Assembly: GCF_913773735.1 (NCBI RefSeq)
Contig: NZ_CAJYEB010000014.1
Coordinates: forward strand, 161,954-225,953
Direction: 5' to 3'
Origin: an uncultured Massilia sp.
GTDB lineage: Bacteria; Pseudomonadota; Gammaproteobacteria; Burkholderiales; Burkholderiaceae_D
DNA: 64,000 nucleotides
Part shown: piece after piece, positions 28,005 through 43,865 of the stretch
Numbering within the stretch: position 1 is the first letter of the stretch
Layout: each line of letters begins with the position of its first letter
The notes under the pieces: model-generated
The model's input: only the letters and a program-made list of their open reading frames with translations
Databases searched by the model: none
What the model was told of the DNA's origin: nothing
Translations under genes and position numbers: made by a program

Positions 28005-29221
28005 TGCCAGCTCAGCTGCAGCTGGCGGTTGTTGTACTGGAAGATCGAGATGTTCTCGCGGTTGTGCACGGCCCGTCCCTCGAGCTGCAGCAACTGGTTC
28101 TTCGCCACCGGATAGCTCAGCGTGGCGCGCGCCGACTGCGTGACCTGGCGCCGCACGGCGTCGATCACGCCGGCGGAATAGGGCAGCGAGCCGTTCCAGG
28201 TCTGGGCCGTGTAGGCTAGCTCGCCGGTCAGTCCGAGCGGCAGCGCACGGCGTACCAGCACGTTGCCGTACCAGCCGCGCCGGCTGCCGCCGGGACGCTG
28301 GTCGCTGGAACGGTCTTCCAGGCGGCCCAGGCTGGCGCTGGCGTAGCGGCCTTCGCCACGCCACGTCAGCAGGCCGCGCAATTCGTAGGTGCTGGAATCG
28401 AAGTTCTCCAGCGTCTGGAACTCGGTGCGCGTGGCGCCGGCCAGCAGGTTGAACTGCATCCCCCGGGGCAGCGGCAGCGGCGGGCCGACGCGCGCCTGGA
28501 GCTGGGCCTGGCGCTGGTAGTAGTGGCCGCCCAGGCTGACGGCGCCCAGCGAGCCGGTGGTGCGCAGCGTCCAGCGGCCGAAGCGCCAGGGCGTGTCGAC
28601 GCCAGCGAACAGCGAGGCGCTGTCGTAGCGGTGCAGCCGGTCGTTGCGGCGCGCCAGGAACTGGGCGAAGCCGAGCGTGCCGTTGGGCGTCAGTTCGCGC
28701 GTGGCGTCGCCGCCCGCCATCGTGTACTGGTCGTGGTGCGGCAGGAAGTCGGACGAGAGCGCGTACTCGATCGGCCCGCTGGGCGTGTCGAGCACGTAGT
28801 TCGAACGGCTGGCGCCCTGGTTGACGTTCTGGTCGATGCCGCGTCCGGCCGTCAGCGAGTACGTCGACAGCGGGCGCCAGGCGGCGCAGCCGGCCTCGCG
28901 GGTCTCGGCGATCAGGCGCAGCATGTCGGCGTTCGGCGCGAAGCGGGTCTCGATGACGGCGAAAAGGCGCTCGGCCTCGTCGCCGTGGCCGAGCGCGCAC
29001 TGGGTCATCGCCAGGTCGAGCCAGGCGCCGGCGTGCAGCGGCTCCTTGTCGATCAGGCGCCGCAGCTCGCTCGAGGCGTCGTTGCGGCGGCCCTCGGCGA
29101 TCGATTGCAGCGCGTCCTGGTACAGGTCCCGCGGCAGGTCGCTGCCGTCCTGCGCCAGGGCGCGGCCGGCCAGCAGCAGCGCCAGCATGGCCGGGAGGAC
29201 CCGGCGCACGGGTATCCTCAT
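27992..29221 (-). CDS. outer-membrane beta-barrel protein with N-terminal TPR-like region
   Basis: Signal peptide; tetratricopeptide-like helices; alternating aromatic beta-strands ending ...NNRQLQLSWQWQY. Confidence 0.7.
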   Translation of the reverse strand: MRIPVRRVLPAMLALLLAGRALAQDGSDLPRDLYQDALQSIAEGRRNDASSELRRLIDKEPLHAGAWLDLAMTQCALGHGDEAERLFAVIETRFAPNADMLRLIAETREAGCAAWRPLSTYSLTAGRGIDQNVNQGASRSNYVLDTPSGPIEYALSSDFLPHHDQYTMAGGDATRELTPNGTLGFAQFLARRNDRLHRYDSASLFAGVDTPWRFGRWTLRTTGSLGAVSLGGHYYQRQAQLQARVGPPLPLPRGMQFNLLAGATRTEFQTLENFDSSTYELRGLLTWRGEGRYASASLGRLEDRSSDQRPGGSRRGWYGNVLVRRALPLGLTGELAYTAQTWNGSLPYSAGVIDAVRRQVTQSARATLSYPVAKNQLLQLEGRAVHNRENISIFQYNNRQLQLSWQWQY

Positions 29222-31253: not shown

Positions 31254-31269
31254 TGTGACGGCTGTCACA
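31254..31269. promoter_or_regulatory. CRP-type site (TGTGA-CGGCTG-TCACA)
   Basis: Perfect TGTGA-N6-TCACA; GATAAT at 31290-31295 follows. Confidence 0.8.
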
Positions 31270-31317
31270 GAAATCATTTGCCTGGAGGGGATAATTCGGG
31301 CAACAAGGGGATCGAAT

Positions 31318-32808
31318 ATGTCGTTGCGCCATCTATTTGTCATCGGCTCGCTGGCTGTCGCCGCGCACGCCGGCGCCGCCGAGGCCGGCAAGGTGATCTT
31401 TGCCGCCGGCGCGGCAAAGGTGGCCGACCGCGCCGGCGCGGAAGGACTCGCCGTGCAGGAAGGCGAGTTGCTCAGCACGGGCGCCGATGGCTTCCTCTAC
31501 GTCAAGACGGTCGACAACGGCCTGTTCATCCTGCGTCCGAACACCGAGGCGCGTATCGTCGCCTACCACGTCGATACCCGCGAGCCGAAGAATACCCGCG
31601 TCAAGCTCGAGCTCATCAAGGGCGTGGCGCGCAGCAAGTCGGGCGAGGCCGTCAAGCTGGCGCGCCAGAATTTCCGCTTCAATACCCCGGTGGCCGCGAT
31701 CGGCGTGCGCGGCACCGACTTCACCGTCTACACCGACCAGGATACCTCGCGCGTGGCCGTGCTGACCGGTGGCGTCGTGGTCAGCGGCTTCGTCGGCGCC
31801 TGCCGCCCGGACGGCGTGGGACCGTGCGAAGGCACGACCAGCCGCGAATTGTCGGCCGCCCAGCGCGGCCAGCTGCTGCAGGTGCAGCGCGGCCAGTCGT
31901 CGCCGCAACTGCTGCAGGGCGGCGCCAACGCGCCCGACCTGGTGTCGCCGCCGCGCGCGGACGAGCCGGTCGCCAAGGCGGGGACGGGGGCGTCGTCGTC
32001 GAGTTCGGCCGCCATCGGCGCCGAGCCGTCGCTGGATCCGCGCAAGAGCCAGGCGCTGGCGCAGCTGGTGTCGAACAACGGCGGCGGGTCGACGCCGACG
32101 CAGCCTTCGCAACCTCAACAGCCGGGGCAGCCCCAGCAACCCCAGGAGCCGCAACAACCGCAGCAGCCACAGGAGCCGCAGCAACCGCAGCAGCCGCAGG
32201 AACCTCAACAGCCGCAGCAGCCGCAGGAACCCCAGCAGCCGCAGCAACCAGTCGACCCGACGCCGCCGGTGACGCCGTTGCCCGATCGGCAGATCGTCTG
32301 GGGACGCTGGACGCCGGTGGCGGGGCGCTCGGCCACGGTCGACCTGACCGGCGAGATTGCTGCTGGCAATACCCTGCTCGCCGTGCGCAAGAACTATGCA
32401 TTGCTGCTCACGCCCGGCGCCGATTACGTGGCCGACACCCGCGGCACGGTCGCTTTCGACCTGCGCGGTAGCGAAGCCTATATCTATCCGGATGCCTTCG
32501 ACGACAAGCCGGCGCAGGCGCAGGTCCGCAATGGCCACCTCAGCGTCGACTTCGGCGCGCGCTCGTTCTCGACGGGTTTCGACGTGGTCACGTCCGAAGG
32601 CGATACCTACAAGATGCATGCGGACGGCGTCGTCGGCAGGAATGGCCGCCTGTACGGTAACGATTTCTACAAGGCGCCCACCAATATGAGCGTCGATGGC
32701 GTGCTCAGCGGTGACAAGGGCGGTTCGGCGGCCTATATCTTCGACGGCCGCATCGATGCGACGCATTTCGTGAATGGCGCAACCTATTGGGGCGTGAATA
32801 AGCAATAG
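31318..32808 (+). CDS. secreted FecR domain protein with PQ-repeat linker and C-terminal beta-rich domain
   Basis: Signal peptide; FecR core NFRFNTPVAAIGVRGTDFTVY; (PQEPQQPQQ)x4; C-term GVLSGDKGGSAAYIFDGRI. Confidence 0.87.
   Translation: MSLRHLFVIGSLAVAAHAGAAEAGKVIFAAGAAKVADRAGAEGLAVQEGELLSTGADGFLYVKTVDNGLFILRPNTEARIVAYHVDTREPKNTRVKLELIKGVARSKSGEAVKLARQNFRFNTPVAAIGVRGTDFTVYTDQDTSRVAVLTGGVVVSGFVGACRPDGVGPCEGTTSRELSAAQRGQLLQVQRGQSSPQLLQGGANAPDLVSPPRADEPVAKAGTGASSSSSAAIGAEPSLDPRKSQALAQLVSNNGGGSTPTQPSQPQQPGQPQQPQEPQQPQQPQEPQQPQQPQEPQQPQQPQEPQQPQQPVDPTPPVTPLPDRQIVWGRWTPVAGRSATVDLTGEIAAGNTLLAVRKNYALLLTPGADYVADTRGTVAFDLRGSEAYIYPDAFDDKPAQAQVRNGHLSVDFGARSFSTGFDVVTSEGDTYKMHADGVVGRNGRLYGNDFYKAPTNMSVDGVLSGDKGGSAAYIFDGRIDATHFVNGATYWGVNKQ
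32140..32247 (+). repeat. 4x27-bp in-frame tandem repeat (PQEPQQPQQ)
   Basis: Direct reading of translation and DNA. Confidence 0.85.
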
Positions 32809-36363: not shown

Positions 36364-38205
36364 ATGATTAAACAACTATCCCAACCACAGAACGAGATCC
36401 AGCTGGCCCTGCGCGGCTTCAAGAGCACCTTCATCACGATCGGCACGTTCAGCGCCATCACGAACCTGCTCGCCCTCGTTCCCTCGCTGTACATGCTGCA
36501 GGTGTACGACCGCGTGCTGGCCAGCCGCAACGAGATCACGCTGCTGATGCTGACGCTGATGATGCTCGGCGGCTACCTGCTGATGTCCTCGCTGGAAATG
36601 ATGCGCAGCTTCGTGCTGGTGCGCGTCGGCGCCAAGTTCGACATGCTGCTCAACAAGCGCGTGTACACGGCCGCGTTCGAGCAGAACCTGAAAAAGGCCG
36701 GCGGCAACGCGGGCCAGGCGCTGAACGACTTGACGAACCTGCGCCAGTTCCTGACCGGTAACGCGCTGTTCGCGTTCTTCGACGCGCCGTGGTTCCCGTT
36801 CTACCTGATCGTCATCTTCTTCTTCGAGCCGTGGCTCGGCGTGTTCGCGCTGTGCGGCACGATCGTGCTGATCATCCTGGCCGTCATCAACGAGAAGGTG
36901 TCGCGCAAGCCGCTGAGCGAAGCGAACACCATGGCCATCGCCGCCGGCAACCTGGCCACCAACAACCTGCGCAACGCCGAGGTCATCGAGTCGATGGGCA
37001 TGCTGCCCAACCTGATGAGCCGCTGGTTCAAGCTGCACAGCCGCTTCCTGAACCTGCAGGCCGAGGCCAGCCAGAAGGCCGGCGTCGTCGGTTCCATCAC
37101 CAAGTTCGTCCAGACCTCCCTGCAGTCGCTGGTGCTGGGCTTCGGCGCGCTGCTGGCCATCGAAGGCCGCATCACCCCGGGCATGATGATCGCCGCTTCC
37201 ATCCTGGTCGGCCGCGCGCTGGCGCCGGTGCAGCAGGTGATCGCCGTCTGGAAGTCGTGGAGCAGCACCCGCAGCGCCTATGAGCGCCTGAGCACGCTGC
37301 TGACCGCCAATCCGGAACGCGGCGCCGGCATGGAACTGCCCAAGCCGAAGGGCGCGCTGGCCGTCGAAGGCGTGGTCGCCGGTCCTCCGGGCAGCAACCA
37401 GCAGGTGCTGCGCGGCGTGACCTTCGCCATCGCCCCGGGCGACGCCGTCGGCGTGATCGGCCCGAGCGGCTCGGGCAAGTCGACGCTGGCGCGCCTGCTG
37501 GTGGGCGTGTGGCCGGCGCTGGCCGGCAAGGTGCGCCTGGACGGCGCCGACATCTACCAGTGGAACAAGGGCGAACTCGGCCCGAACGTCGGCTACCTGC
37601 CGCAGGACATCGAGCTGTTCAGCGGCACCGTCAGCGACAACATCGCCCGCTTCGGCGAGGTCGATGCCGAGAAGGTCGTCGAGGCGGCCAAGCGCGCCGG
37701 CGTGCACGACATGATCCTGCACCTGCCCAAGGGCTACGACACGCCGCTGGGCGACGGCGGCGCCGGCCTGTCCGGCGGCCAGAAGCAGCGCCTCGGCCTG
37801 GCGCGCGCGATGTACGGCGACCCGGCCCTGATCGTGCTGGACGAGCCGAACTCGAACCTGGACGAGATGGGCGAGCAGGCGCTGGTGCAGGCCGTGCTCG
37901 ACCTGCGACGCCGCGGCAAGACCATCGTCCTGATCACCCACCGCACCAGCATCATCGGCGCCACCAACAAGCTGCTGCTGCTGCGCGACGGCGCGGCGCA
38001 GGCGTTCGGCCCGACCGAGCAGGTGCTGGCGGCGCTGCAGGAAGCCAACCAGAAGGCGGTGGCGCAGCAGCAGGCCGTCCAGCAACAGGCCCAGGCGCAA
38101 GCCCAGGCCCAGGCGCAGGCCCGCGCGCAGGCGGCACAGGCCGCCCAGGCCGCACAAGACAAGGCGGCGCAGCCTGCCGCGCAAACGGAACAAGGAAACG
38201 AATAA
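36364..38205 (+). CDS. type I secretion ABC transporter (PrtD/RsaD-like)
   Basis: PrtD-like TM region; Walker A GPSGSGKST; signature LSGGQKQR; no peptidase domain; Q/A-rich C-tail. Confidence 0.93.
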   Translation: MIKQLSQPQNEIQLALRGFKSTFITIGTFSAITNLLALVPSLYMLQVYDRVLASRNEITLLMLTLMMLGGYLLMSSLEMMRSFVLVRVGAKFDMLLNKRVYTAAFEQNLKKAGGNAGQALNDLTNLRQFLTGNALFAFFDAPWFPFYLIVIFFFEPWLGVFALCGTIVLIILAVINEKVSRKPLSEANTMAIAAGNLATNNLRNAEVIESMGMLPNLMSRWFKLHSRFLNLQAEASQKAGVVGSITKFVQTSLQSLVLGFGALLAIEGRITPGMMIAASILVGRALAPVQQVIAVWKSWSSTRSAYERLSTLLTANPERGAGMELPKPKGALAVEGVVAGPPGSNQQVLRGVTFAIAPGDAVGVIGPSGSGKSTLARLLVGVWPALAGKVRLDGADIYQWNKGELGPNVGYLPQDIELFSGTVSDNIARFGEVDAEKVVEAAKRAGVHDMILHLPKGYDTPLGDGGAGLSGGQKQRLGLARAMYGDPALIVLDEPNSNLDEMGEQALVQAVLDLRRRGKTIVLITHRTSIIGATNKLLLLRDGAAQAFGPTEQVLAALQEANQKAVAQQQAVQQQAQAQAQAQAQARAQAAQAAQAAQDKAAQPAAQTEQGNE

Positions 38206-38208
38206 ACC

Positions 38209-39567
38209 ATGAAGCTCATTTCCAAGAATGAAGCGGCGACCGACGTCATCACCCATGACGTGGCGCCGCTGACGGTGAATACCGACGACCGGGCCTGGAC
38301 GCGCATGGGCTGGATCATCGTCCTGGTCGGCGTGGTCGGCTTCCTGGTCTGGGCCTGCTTCGCGCCGCTCGACAAGGGCGTGCCGATGAGCGGCACCGTG
38401 GCCAAGGAATCGAACCGCAAGGCCGTGCAGCACCAGTCCGGCGGCACGATCCAGCAGATCCTGGTCAAGGACGGCGACGTGGTCAAGGCGGGCCAGGTGC
38501 TGGTGCGCATGAATGCCATCAATGCCCAGGCCGGCTACGACGTGACCGAGGCGCAGTATCTGACCGCGCGCGCCACCGAGGCGCGCCTGATCGCCGAGCG
38601 CGACGGCCTGAAGACGATCCGCTTCCCCGAAGAGCTGGCCAAGCGCGCCGGCGAACCGCGCGTGGCCGAGATGATGACGCTGCAGCAGCAGCTGCTGTCC
38701 TCGCGCCAGTCCTCGCTGCAGAACGAACTGGGCGGCGTCGACGAGAACATCGCCGGCCTCAAGGTGCAGATCCAGGGCCTGCAGGAATCGCGCGACAGCA
38801 AGAAGGAACAGGTCAAATTCCTGAAGGAACAGCTCGACGGCATGCGCGACCTGGCCAAGGACGGCTACGTCGCCCGCAACCGCCTGCTCGACCTGGAGCG
38901 CACCTACGCCCAGCTGCAGGGCGCCATTTCGGAAGACATCGGCAACATCGGGCGCGCCCAGCGCCAGGTGGTCGAGATGACCCTGCGCAAGGCGCAGCGC
39001 GTGCAGGACTACCAGAAGGAAGTGCGCACCGTGCTGGCCGACACCCAGAAGGAAGCCGAAGCCCAGGGCGCGCGCATGAGCGCCCAGCAGTTCGAACTGT
39101 CGAACGTCGAGGTCAAGGCGCCGGTCGACGGCACCGTGGTGGGCCTGGCCGTGTTCACCAACGGCGGCGTGGTCACGCCCGGCTTCAAGATGATGGACAT
39201 CGTGCCGACCGACGATCCGCTGATCGTCGAGGGCCAGCTGCCGGTCAACCTGATCGACAAGGTGCATCCGGGCCTGCAGACCGAGCTGATCTTCTCGGCC
39301 TTCAACGCCAACCGTACGCCGCACATCCCGGGCGTGGTCGAAACCGTCTCGGCCGACCGCAGCGTCGAGGAGCGTACCGGCACGCCGTTCTACAAGGTGC
39401 GCGTGAAGGTGTCGGACGCGGGCCAGAAGATGGTCGCCTCGCACCACATGGACATCCGCCCGGGCATGCCGGTGGAACTGTTCGTCAAGACCGGCGAGCG
39501 CACCATGATGAGCTACCTGCTCAAGCCGGTGTTCGACCGCGCCAAATCGTCGATGAGCGAGGAATGA
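38209..39567 (+). CDS. type I secretion membrane fusion protein (HlyD/PrtE family)
   Basis: GTVAKESNRKAVQHQSGGTIQQILVKDGDVVKAGQVL; C-terminal HlyD motif. Confidence 0.93.
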   Translation: MKLISKNEAATDVITHDVAPLTVNTDDRAWTRMGWIIVLVGVVGFLVWACFAPLDKGVPMSGTVAKESNRKAVQHQSGGTIQQILVKDGDVVKAGQVLVRMNAINAQAGYDVTEAQYLTARATEARLIAERDGLKTIRFPEELAKRAGEPRVAEMMTLQQQLLSSRQSSLQNELGGVDENIAGLKVQIQGLQESRDSKKEQVKFLKEQLDGMRDLAKDGYVARNRLLDLERTYAQLQGAISEDIGNIGRAQRQVVEMTLRKAQRVQDYQKEVRTVLADTQKEAEAQGARMSAQQFELSNVEVKAPVDGTVVGLAVFTNGGVVTPGFKMMDIVPTDDPLIVEGQLPVNLIDKVHPGLQTELIFSAFNANRTPHIPGVVETVSADRSVEERTGTPFYKVRVKVSDAGQKMVASHHMDIRPGMPVELFVKTGERTMMSYLLKPVFDRAKSSMSEE

Positions 39568-39571
39568 ACGC

Positions 39572-40924
39572 GTGAGCAAGGTATCGAAACGATCGACCGG
39601 CCTGCGCCAGGGCGCGCTGGCCCTGGCTTGCGTCCTGCTGGCGGCGGGCGGCAGCGCCCATGCCGTCAGCCTGCAGCAGGCCTATGAACTGGCCCTCAAG
39701 AACGATCCGGCCTACCGGATGAATTTCTACGAGAACGAGGCGGCCAAGGAAAACGCCATCATCGGGCGCTCGAACCTGCTGCCGCAGATCTCGGCCAGCT
39801 TCTCGAACAGCCGCAACGTCGCCGACATTTCCAACATCGTCAACGGCGTCGAACTGCCGGCCACCCATCCGCACTACATCAGCCGCTCCTCGGTCGTGCA
39901 AGTGCGCCAGCCGATCCTGAACCTGGACGGCTTCGTGCGCTACCGCCAGGGCAAGGTGCAGACCAGGCAGGGCGCGGCCCAGTTCGCGGCCAACACCAAC
40001 GACGTCATCATCCGCGTCGTCAGCGCCTACGCCGACGCGCTGTTCGCCGAGGACCAGGTGGAACTCTCGCGCGTGCAGCGCGACATGTATGCCGAGCAGC
40101 AGAAGGTCAACCAGCACCTGTTCGAGAAGGGCGAGGGCACGCGCACCGACATGCTCGAGACCCAGGCGCGCCTGGACCTGGCCGAAGCCCAGCTGATCGA
40201 AGCGCAGGACAATGCGGTGGCCATGCGCAGTACGCTGGCCGGCGTGATCGGCACCGACCCGGGCGCGCTCGACAAGCTCGGCCCGAACCTGCGTCCGCAA
40301 AAGCTCGACAAGAACTTCGACGACTGGCGCGCGACCGCGCTCGAGCGCAATCCGGAACTGGCCGCGGCGCGCCTGGCGATCGAGAACGCGCGCCTGGAAA
40401 TCCAGCGCAACAAGGCCGGCCATGCGCCGCGCATCGATTTCGTCGGCAGCTACAGCAAGGGCGATTCGGAATCGATCACCACCTACACCCAGAACACCGT
40501 CAACCGGACCCTGGGCGTGCAGGTGAACATCCCGATCTACCAGGGCGGCGCCATCAATGCCAGCACGCGCCAGGCGGCGGCGGGCTACGAGCGCGCCAGG
40601 TCCGACCTGGACGTGCGCAGCAACCGCATCCTGGTCGACCTGCGCAAGTCCTACGACGTGGTGCAGAACAGCGTGGCCAAGGTCGGCGCGCTGGAAAAGG
40701 CCGTCGAATCGGGCAAGCTCCTGATGACCGCGACCGAGCAGAGCATCAAGGGCGGCGTGCGCATCAACCTCGACCTGCTCAACGCCCAGCAGCAGCTGTA
40801 CACCAGCCAGCGCGACCTGGCCCAGGCCCGCTACAACTACCTGCTCGGCCTGCTGCGCCTGCGCGCCGGCGCCGGCACGCTGGACGACGCCGCGGTGCGC
40901 GAAGTGGCGGCTTACTTCCGCTGA
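39572..40924 (+). CDS. TolC family type I secretion outer membrane protein
   Basis: SLQQAYELALKNDPAYRM...; two TolC repeats. Confidence 0.93.
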   Translation: MSKVSKRSTGLRQGALALACVLLAAGGSAHAVSLQQAYELALKNDPAYRMNFYENEAAKENAIIGRSNLLPQISASFSNSRNVADISNIVNGVELPATHPHYISRSSVVQVRQPILNLDGFVRYRQGKVQTRQGAAQFAANTNDVIIRVVSAYADALFAEDQVELSRVQRDMYAEQQKVNQHLFEKGEGTRTDMLETQARLDLAEAQLIEAQDNAVAMRSTLAGVIGTDPGALDKLGPNLRPQKLDKNFDDWRATALERNPELAAARLAIENARLEIQRNKAGHAPRIDFVGSYSKGDSESITTYTQNTVNRTLGVQVNIPIYQGGAINASTRQAAAGYERARSDLDVRSNRILVDLRKSYDVVQNSVAKVGALEKAVESGKLLMTATEQSIKGGVRINLDLLNAQQQLYTSQRDLAQARYNYLLGLLRLRAGAGTLDDAAVREVAAYFR

Positions 40925-40951: not shown

Positions 40952-40987
40952 CGGCCCGTGCGCGCAAGCGCCCGGGCCGTTTTTTTT
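40952..40987 (+). terminator. intrinsic terminator after T1SS operon
   Basis: cggcccg...cgggccg followed by T8. Confidence 0.85.
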
Positions 40988-41101: not shown

Positions 41102-42634
41102 ATGCAAGACTGGTCTGATGGGTATGTCACCGATATCGCCTACACCTATGGCTACTACACCGAGCTGAATCCGCTGCGCGCCCGGATCGCCCTGCTCGAC
41201 AGCGGCATCGTGCCCCCGGACGTGCGCGTAGCCTGCGAACTCGGCTTCGGCCAGGGCGTGAGCGTCAATGTCCACGACGCGGCATCCGGCATCGCATGGC
41301 ACGGCACCGACTTCAACCCGGCGCACGCCGCCTTCGCCAGCGAACTGGCCGGCGCCACGCCGCTGGCCGGGCGCCTGTTCGACCAGTCCTTCGAGGAATA
41401 CTGCAGCCGCAAGGACTTGCCGGATTTCGACTTCATCGGCCTGCACGGCATCTGGAGCTGGGTGTCGGACGCCAACCGCGCCCTGATTGCCGATTTCGTC
41501 AAGCGCAAGCTGAAGGTCGGTGGCGTGCTTTACGTCAGCTACAACACCCAGCCCGGCTGGGCCGCCATGACGCCGCTCAAGGACCTCCTCACCGCCTACG
41601 TCGATACGATGGCGGCGCACGGTACCCCGCTCGTCGAGCGCATCGGCGCCGGCCTGGACTTCATCGAGAAGATGCTGGAAGGCGCCGGCTATGCCCGGGC
41701 CAATCCGGCGGTTGCCGAACTGGTCAAGCGCTTGCGCAGCCAGGACCGCAATTACCTGGTGCACGAGTACCTGAACAAGGACTGGATGCCGATGCCGTTC
41801 GCGCGCATGGCCGACTGCATGGCGTCGCTGAAGCTGCAGTTCGCCGGCTCGGCGCACTACCTCGACCACGTGGCGGCGCTCAACCTGAACAAGGAGCAGC
41901 AGCAGATGCTGGCCGGCATCGGCGATCCGGTGTTCCAGGAAACCGTGCGCGACTTCATCGTCAACCAGCGCTTCCGGCGCGACTACTGGGTGCGCGGCCT
42001 GCGCCGCCTGCGGCCGCTCGAGCAGATCGAGCGCCTGCGCGCCGAGCGGGTCGTGCTGGCGGTGCCGCCGGCCCAGGTCAAGTTCACCGTCGCCGGCCTG
42101 CTGGGCGAGGCGGCACTGCACCGCCCGGTCTACGAGCCGGTGGTCGAGGCGCTGGCGGACCACCGCCACCGCTCGATCGGCGAGGTCGAACAGGCCGTCG
42201 CGCGCCACGGCGTCAGCCAGGGCCAGGCGATCCAGGCGATCATGGTGCTGGTGGGGAACGGCACGCTGCATACCGTGCAGGACGTGGAGGCGATCGAGCG
42301 CGCCGGACCGGCCACCGCGCGCCTGAACGGCGCCTTGCTGCAGCATGCGCGCTCGTCGGGCGACATGGCCTTCCTGGCCTCGCCCGTGACCGGCGGTGGC
42401 GTGCAGGTGGGGCGCATCGAGCAGCTGTTCCTGCTGGCGCAGCGGCAGGGGATCGCGGAACCCGAAGGCTGGGCGCGCTTTGCCATGGACCTGCTGGAGC
42501 GGCAGGGCCAGAACCTGCTCGACGGGGACAAGCCATTTTCCTCGGCCGCGCTGCAGTTGCGCGCACTGGAAGACCAGGCCCGGCAGGCAGCTGAGGTACG
42601 CCTGCCCCTGTTGCGGGAACTCGGCATCGCCTGA
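41102..42634 (+). CDS. class I SAM methyltransferase with methyltransferase regulatory domain (PKMT-like)
   Basis: CELGFGQGVSVNVHDAA SAM motif I; ~510 aa with the domain layout of rickettsial OmpB lysine methyltransferases. Confidence 0.78.
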   Translation: MQDWSDGYVTDIAYTYGYYTELNPLRARIALLDSGIVPPDVRVACELGFGQGVSVNVHDAASGIAWHGTDFNPAHAAFASELAGATPLAGRLFDQSFEEYCSRKDLPDFDFIGLHGIWSWVSDANRALIADFVKRKLKVGGVLYVSYNTQPGWAAMTPLKDLLTAYVDTMAAHGTPLVERIGAGLDFIEKMLEGAGYARANPAVAELVKRLRSQDRNYLVHEYLNKDWMPMPFARMADCMASLKLQFAGSAHYLDHVAALNLNKEQQQMLAGIGDPVFQETVRDFIVNQRFRRDYWVRGLRRLRPLEQIERLRAERVVLAVPPAQVKFTVAGLLGEAALHRPVYEPVVEALADHRHRSIGEVEQAVARHGVSQGQAIQAIMVLVGNGTLHTVQDVEAIERAGPATARLNGALLQHARSSGDMAFLASPVTGGGVQVGRIEQLFLLAQRQGIAEPEGWARFAMDLLERQGQNLLDGDKPFSSAALQLRALEDQARQAAEVRLPLLRELGIA

Positions 42635-42797: not shown

Positions 42798-43075
42798 ATG
42801 GCAAGCACCTACGATTCCACGATCAATTCGTTCTACCTGGCCTATTACGGCCGTCCCGCGGATCCCGCCGGCCTGGCATTCTGGACCGATGCGATCGCTG
42901 ACGGCAACATGAGCGTGGGCTCGTGAACATGGGCAGCGACCGATCCTACCTGGTGCTGAACAACGGTGACGACGTCATCGACCAGAATGACTACGTCATC
43001 AAGATCGTCGGCATGGGCGAGATTGCGCTGGACGAGGCCCACAACGTGACCTACACCTTCCGCGCGCCGGACTGA
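42798..43075 (+). pseudogene. DUF4214/T1SS-substrate remnant: N-terminal piece plus out-of-frame C-terminal secretion-signal piece
   Basis: MASTYDSTINSFYLAYYGRPADPAGLAFWTDAIADGNMSVGS* (42798-42926) then MGSDRSYLVLNNGDDVIDQNDYVIKIVGMGEIALDEAHNVTYTFRAPD* (42929-43075) in another frame. Confidence 0.75.
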
Positions 43076-43095
43076 CGCTCCGCACGCCGCTCTGG

Positions 43096-43121: not shown

Positions 43122-43292
43122 ATTTTCCTGAATAATATTTATTTTTAATGAAATGAACTTCAAATAGAAAGATTTACTAATAATTTCCTATGGAGATTAT
43201 TTCCTTTTTTCATCTATTTAATGCCCGGGTTTGCTGCGCCGTTTTCATTTTAATTAATGTATGCTTTATTGACATTCGATATGGAGGCAGCG

Positions 43293-43865
43293 ATGGCCAA
43301 TTATGTTAATGATGTGCAAAAGTTATATATCGCTTATTTCTCGCGTCCTGCGGACGCGAAAGGGCTGGCATTCTGGACCGATGTCCTGTCGGCCAATGCC
43401 GTGACGGGCATGCAGCAGATCTCGGCGGCGTTCGCGGGTTCCGAGGAATACCGGGCCAGCTATGCCAATATGGATAACCGCGCCGTCGTGGATGCCGTGT
43501 ACCACAACCTGTTCGGTCGCGCCGGCGAGACGGCGGGGATCGATTTCTGGGTCAATGCGCTGAACAACCACACGATCACGATCGACAACGTGGTGTCGCA
43601 GGTGGCGGCCGGCGCCCAGAACGACGACAAGGTCGTCTTCAACGGCCGCGTGGCCGTCGCCATGTCGTTCACCGACCACCTCGACCTGGCGACCGAGCAG
43701 GCCGCCTACCAGGGCGGCACGGCGAATGCGATCGCCAAGGCTTTCATCGGTTCCATCGTCGACCTGCAGAGCGCCGCCAGCGCCATCGACCCCGGCGTCA
43801 TCGATGCCAAGATCGCCGAGATCGTCGGCACGCCGACCAGCGCCGCGCACGAACTCATCGTCTGA
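43293..43865 (+). CDS. stand-alone DUF4214 domain protein
   Basis: MANYVNDVQKLYIAYFSRPADAKGLAFWTDVL...; GGAGG RBS; collinear with first ~190 aa of the S-layer protein. Confidence 0.88.
   Translation: MANYVNDVQKLYIAYFSRPADAKGLAFWTDVLSANAVTGMQQISAAFAGSEEYRASYANMDNRAVVDAVYHNLFGRAGETAGIDFWVNALNNHTITIDNVVSQVAAGAQNDDKVVFNGRVAVAMSFTDHLDLATEQAAYQGGTANAIAKAFIGSIVDLQSAASAIDPGVIDAKIAEIVGTPTSAAHELIV

Follow-up and report, generated by a model that had tools for sequence, protein, structure and literature searches.

In the 64,000-nucleotide stretch of DNA from an uncultured Massilia sp. that was analysed here as a whole (the window), a gene for a predicted protein lysine methyltransferase (PKMT) of the outer membrane (OM) protein-modifying class lies next to a type I secretion system (T1SS) operon and the gene of its passenger, an RsaA-type surface-layer (S-layer) protein. 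The pairing of the enzyme with an S-layer secretion locus is not a local chance, and the link of OM PKMTs to type I-secreted RsaA-type S-layers is what is new here. We consider it likely that the enzyme, acting in the cytoplasm with S-adenosylmethionine (AdoMet, SAM), methylates lysines of the neighbouring S-layer protein before its export by the T1SS.

Methyltransferase, passenger and secretion operon

The enzyme is encoded by an open reading frame of 510 residues at 41102-42634 (+) with high third-position GC. Its family had been named in a sequence-only reading of the window; the hidden Markov model (HMM) search asked for there proved the name correct, as PF10119 (MethyTransf_Reg) matches residues 215-298 with an E-value of 2e-31 and 109 bits against a Pfam cut-off of 25.5. 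The SAM motif I read at the same time, CELGFGQG, was confirmed at residues 45-52. In a Pfam profile search of the genome, this is the sole PF10119 gene.

Comparison of the enzyme with the PDB by phmmer gave only two meaningful matches, Rickettsia PKMT2 (4.4e-15) and PKMT1 (6.3e-15). With an AlphaFold model built with 14 sequences of the genus (pLDDT 86.5), the top eight Foldseek matches were PKMT1/2 over the whole chain (E 1e-18 to 2e-16, TM 0.67-0.69), the alignment spanning 533-547 columns and covering the AdoMet, dimerization, middle and C-terminal domains. The next match was Rv2067c, a lysine methyltransferase of mycobacteria; other methyltransferases, matching in the Rossmann core alone, ranked far lower. 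The AdoMet-contacting residues of RpPKMT1, Asp102 and His146 (PMC11784438), align with D70 and H115 of the enzyme, which are unchanged in 14 relatives, while Leu103 of PKMT1 aligns with F71. On sequence and model, the enzyme is probably an OM-protein lysine methyltransferase of the PKMT1/PKMT2/KmtA class. KmtA-like enzymes (OM PKMT A) are recognized by being closer to KmtA than to the rickettsial enzymes and by a charged motif, located in KmtA at Lys282-Arg295. Rhodobacterales enzymes are reported to be confined to this cluster A (PMC11784438), and a relative of 50% identity to the enzyme is present in Rhodobacterales, which may point towards cluster A.

The operon upstream is a complete PrtD-HlyD-TolC set (36364-40924), each gene being over its NCBIfam cut-off (Table 1). 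The passenger contains 41 lysines, 4 arginines and no cysteine in its 892 residues. Searched alone as a single sequence, it gave no significant RsaA match in the PDB; a profile of 26 passengers of the genus matched structures of Caulobacter RsaA with E-values of 1e-25 to 1e-20 (6p5t, 1.5e-25) with a strong composition bias, and PKMT-adjacent passengers of other genera matched RsaA by single-sequence phmmer (5e-39 and 9e-25). The AlphaFold model of the passenger (pLDDT 86.6) has a helical N-terminal DUF4214 region followed by a beta-rich body. Its Foldseek comparison with the PDB was significant only for RsaA entries (2e-14 to 3e-11; next match 0.07), at a low global TM of 0.27-0.34 that leaves the domain arrangement relative to RsaA uncertain. 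The RsaA-like C-terminal motif described below is present as well. The S-layer label that the protein of the T1SS locus had received at the outset is thus supported by family profile, fold and other-genus passengers; by these sequence and model comparisons the passenger is an RsaA-type S-layer protein, and as such it would form a two-dimensional lattice on the cell.

Linkage within and beyond the genus

Among 62 genomes of the genus, the enzyme was found in 14 and the T1SS ATPase in 47. The ATPase is present in 14/14 enzyme-bearing genomes against 33/48 of those lacking the enzyme (P 0.014), and in 12 of the 14 genomes carrying both, enzyme and ATPase are no more than 15 kb apart. The enzyme is located at the T1SS-passenger locus itself in nine cases, its position varying: after TolC (the window, G050, G002 and G021), between passenger and PrtD (G061, G045, G054 and G025) or, in G006, immediately past the locus. 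The G006 enzyme (L029) is only ~31% identical, yet it occupies the same T1SS-passenger locus. None of 20 random 20-kb segments from these genomes contained the ATPase or a passenger. In one further genome, G010 (L020), the PKMT stands amid four DUF4214 proteins of 1061-1650 residues, all in one direction, ~13 kb from the T1SS operon.

Relatives in other genera were retrieved with an alignment query on genome contigs, a single-protein query having returned nothing. Enough upstream sequence was available for 71 of them, roughly 50-60% identical to the enzyme. A passenger was defined as a protein of 811-1771 residues with at most 1.6% arginine and at most 3 cysteines, encoded directly upstream on the same strand. 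Of the 71 relatives, 22 have such an arginine-depleted passenger; among control genes taken from these loci, the count is 8 of 478 (odds ratio 26, nominal P 3e-15). Passenger and enzyme genes are mostly separated by 100-170 bp, and on the enzyme tree the state of having such a passenger changed at least 18 times. The hosts include Nitrosomonas, Rhodoferax, Limnohabitans, Ramlibacter, Tepidimonas, Stutzerimonas, Imhoffiella and Duganella. An RsaA-like C-terminal motif (GGDTYV...D.IVKLTG) ends 17 of the 22 upstream passengers, the control patterns giving 0 hits (reversed) and 1 hit (N-terminal); the motif was composed after the sequences had been viewed and is therefore descriptive, not a test. 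A C-terminal HMM made from the genus alignment was dropped, since the genus has unlike C-terminal types and only 2 of 80 loci were found with it.

In alphaproteobacteria, the gene order on the plasmid of Ruegeria TM1040 is calcium-binding RTX protein, PKMT, DUF6447, T1SS ATPase and HlyD. Plasmids with annotation from Ruegeria, Rhizobium rhizoryzae, Rhodospirillum rubrum and Sulfitobacter show the pattern again, and two Rhizobium plasmids lack it. On plasmids of alphaproteobacteria, a DUF6447 family protein recurs next to RTX passengers and the PKMT (loci L226, L228 and L232). Taken together, the survey of co-occurrence that the sequence-only reading had called for upholds the functional coupling suggested there, with linkage conserved across Beta-, Gamma- and Alphaproteobacteria. 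At other loci of the PF10119 family, two or three PF10119 genes adjoin or lie close together (L238 of G086, L242 of G100 and L245 of G126), whereas at S-layer loci the gene is present in single copy.

Proposed methylation before export and its alternatives

Passengers of T1SSs cross both membranes unfolded and fold outside, driven by calcium. To a methyltransferase in the cytoplasm, the chain would therefore be presented in extended form, with many lysines. We infer catalysis, the identity of the substrate, the timing and the purpose as follows. The passenger would be kept unfolded in the calcium-poor cytoplasm, so that many of its 41 lysines would be reachable, and the enzyme would methylate several of them following no strict sequence motif. 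The PrtD-HlyD-TolC channel would then export the methylated chain, calcium would fold it outside, and the methyl mark would probably tune lattice assembly, display level, adhesion or coat protection. An extended chain with many lysines as substrate fits the motif-free action reported for KmtA and the rickettsial enzymes (PMC11784438). Loss of KmtA increases AtaA display and adhesion (PMC11784438); by analogy, the mark may tune display or assembly here. In profile searches of the own genome, neither a YadA-anchor protein nor an autotransporter scored above cut-off. Since these are the two known substrate classes of PKMT1/2/KmtA enzymes, the result supports the passenger as the substrate, and a trimeric or classical autotransporter was rejected as a candidate.

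Several results weigh against methylation of the passenger. While the family, the S-layer label and the linkage of the initial overall reading were supported, a lysine signature in the passenger was sought and not found: passengers of PKMT-bearing genomes are not enriched in lysine (median 3.1% with the enzyme in the operon against 4.4% in genomes without it). In the same comparison, passengers were longer in genomes with the PKMT in the operon (median 931 against 700 residues, P 0.04, G045 being represented by its nearer 504-residue passenger and not by that of 1274 residues), a difference left unused owing to kinship, with only 3-5 independent pairs. The relatives are not independent, which makes the P values nominal. 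A T1SS operon is found with no PKMT in 33 genomes of the genus, so that methylation would be optional. In the window, a terminator-like hairpin intervenes between TolC and the methyltransferase gene, which is thus probably a transcription unit separate from that of the T1SS. When 20 loci with PF10119 were drawn from the family at large, only ~6 proved to be at S-layer/T1SS loci; one part of PF10119 is accordingly S-layer-linked, the remaining members presumably serving other proteins. Finally, the own genome contains ~20 further DUF4214 genes, some very large, so that other passengers could be the substrate, and some relatives of the enzyme are located among glycan genes.

The last two points lead to rival explanations. 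The main substrate of the PKMT might be another exported or OM protein, either a different DUF4214/RTX passenger or an envelope component, in which case the S-layer linkage would reflect a shared secretion route. The further DUF4214 genes would offer such substrates, the G010 enzyme is surrounded by proteins of this kind at some distance from its T1SS, and KmtA acts on an unlinked type of protein; nevertheless, it is one RsaA-type passenger that is paired directly upstream in many genera, and with the known substrate classes missing from the genome as described, we regard this explanation as rather unlikely. An improbable alternative is a non-protein substrate of the enzyme, namely a sugar or small molecule belonging to the O-antigen or to a surface glycan anchoring or decorating the S-layer. 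It is established that RsaA binds the O-antigen of lipopolysaccharide (PDB 6z7p, title), relatives occur among glycosyltransferase and dTDP-rhamnose genes (Azospirillum, Ruegeria and Rhizobium plasmids), and acyltransferase and fatty acid hydroxylase genes follow downstream in the window. The match to PKMT1/2, however, extends beyond the Rossmann core to the full length including the regulatory, middle and C-terminal domains, and the commonest shared partner is a passenger, not glycan genes.

Least probable is that the linkage is incidental, S-layer loci being variable islands that gather unrelated genes. The variable position of the PKMT and its absence from most genus genomes with the operon would suit such islands, but the PKMT has been recruited repeatedly, to different positions and by distant lineages (the 31%-identity relative among them), against controls of 0-2%. 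Methylation of the RsaA-type passenger before export is retained as the favoured explanation.

Gene setting, related systems and meaning

Table 1. Features of the methyltransferase locus in the window (positions of the window).
Feature	Position	Strand	Basis
FecR-domain protein	31255..32808	+	PF04773; relatives in L107, L124, L132, L134, L139, L160, L167, L173, L175
RsaA-type S-layer protein, T1SS passenger, proposed substrate, 892 aa	33248..35926	+	DUF4214, profile, AlphaFold, Foldseek
PrtD-type T1SS permease/ATPase	36364..38205	+	TIGR01842, 3.5e-234
HlyD-type T1SS periplasmic adaptor	38209..39567	+	TIGR01843, 4e-121
TolC-type outer membrane channel	39572..40924	+	TIGR01844, 9.5e-99
Terminator-like hairpin and T-run, CGGCCCG ... 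CGGGCCG TTTTTTTT, between TolC and methyltransferase	40952..40987	+	read from sequence
Predicted OM-PKMT-type protein lysine methyltransferase, 510 aa	41102..42634	+	Pfam, phmmer, AlphaFold, Foldseek
DUF4214/RTX gene remnant; frame differs between start and tail, middle lost	42798..43076	+	translations
Short intact DUF4214 protein, 202 aa, kept at locus in genus	43257..43865	+	PF13946, 3e-16; neighbour genes

The gene had been placed between the T1SS operon and two further DUF4214 loci. The operon upstream and an intact DUF4214 gene of 202 residues downstream stand, whereas the other locus is a remnant, in which a 42-residue DUF4214 start hits a stop and an RTX-type tail of ~50 residues lies in another frame; judging by this remnant, passengers seem to come and go in the S-layer region. 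For the 202-residue protein no match was found in the PDB. The hairpin has a 14-nt loop, which exceeds the limit of the terminator scanner, and was identified by reading the sequence directly; a scan of the plus strand for sigma-70-type promoters found none. The FecR-domain protein, encoded upstream of passengers in other genera too, is possibly part of the module. A CHASE2-adenylate/guanylate cyclase gene is located at 29218 on the minus strand of the window, and one or both of these genes were also observed near passenger genes at L107, L124, L132, L134, L139, L156, L160, L167, L173 and L175. As a pair, the two may serve S-layer loci in sensing or regulation.

With Rickettsia PKMT1/PKMT2 (OM PKMT R, acting on OmpB) the enzyme shares PF10119, the full-length fold, the AdoMet-contacting Asp/His and a length of ~510-550 residues, at ~17% identity in the structural alignment. 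Its partner, a T1SS passenger, differs from the autotransporter OmpB, and unlike PKMT1/2 the enzyme is genomically linked to the gene of its proposed substrate. OmpB is needed for the S-layer of R. parkeri (PMC13337285), so that the modification would be tied to S-layers in general. KmtA of Acinetobacter Tol 5 (OM PKMT A, acting on AtaA) resembles the enzyme in class, length (516 residues), a free-living host and a surface-protein substrate, which is proposed for the enzyme here; AtaA is a trimeric autotransporter adhesin, whereas the genome here yielded no YadA-anchor protein. In methanotrophs (M. album BG8 and Methylotuvimicrobium), an RsaA-like S-layer protein likewise adjoins complete T1SS genes, and the word methyltransferase is absent from the main texts of both papers (PMC13274458, PMC11784148). 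The passenger is similar to RsaA of Caulobacter crescentus, exported with RsaD/RsaE, in being a T1SS-exported S-layer protein and in profile, C-terminal motif and fold; it differs in its N-terminal DUF4214 domain. The papers searched, which do not cover the whole literature, describe neither lysine methylation of RsaA nor coupling of a PKMT to a T1SS-exported S-layer, and none of them combines DUF4214 and methyltransferase. The genome of C. vibrioides, the RsaA model organism, served as a control and contains one PF10119 gene scoring above cut-off.

Among bacterial surface proteins, OmpB, AtaA and flagellin are known to be methylated on lysine, and to our knowledge such methylation has been proven in very few cases. 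PF10119 enzymes are, as far as we know, widespread with a substrate known for few. On balance, it is somewhat probable that RsaA-type S-layers of Beta-, Gamma- and Alphaproteobacteria are widely equipped with a dedicated lysine methylation ahead of type I export, an accessory gained repeatedly; these S-layers would be a third class of OM PKMT substrate, and the S-layer modification would be new to the papers searched. If true, some S-layers, which are very abundant proteins, bear a mark that is missed by routine searches lacking methyl-lysine as a variable modification. The recurrent RsaA-type pairing also proposes a substrate for one large branch of PF10119, with free-living cultured hosts.
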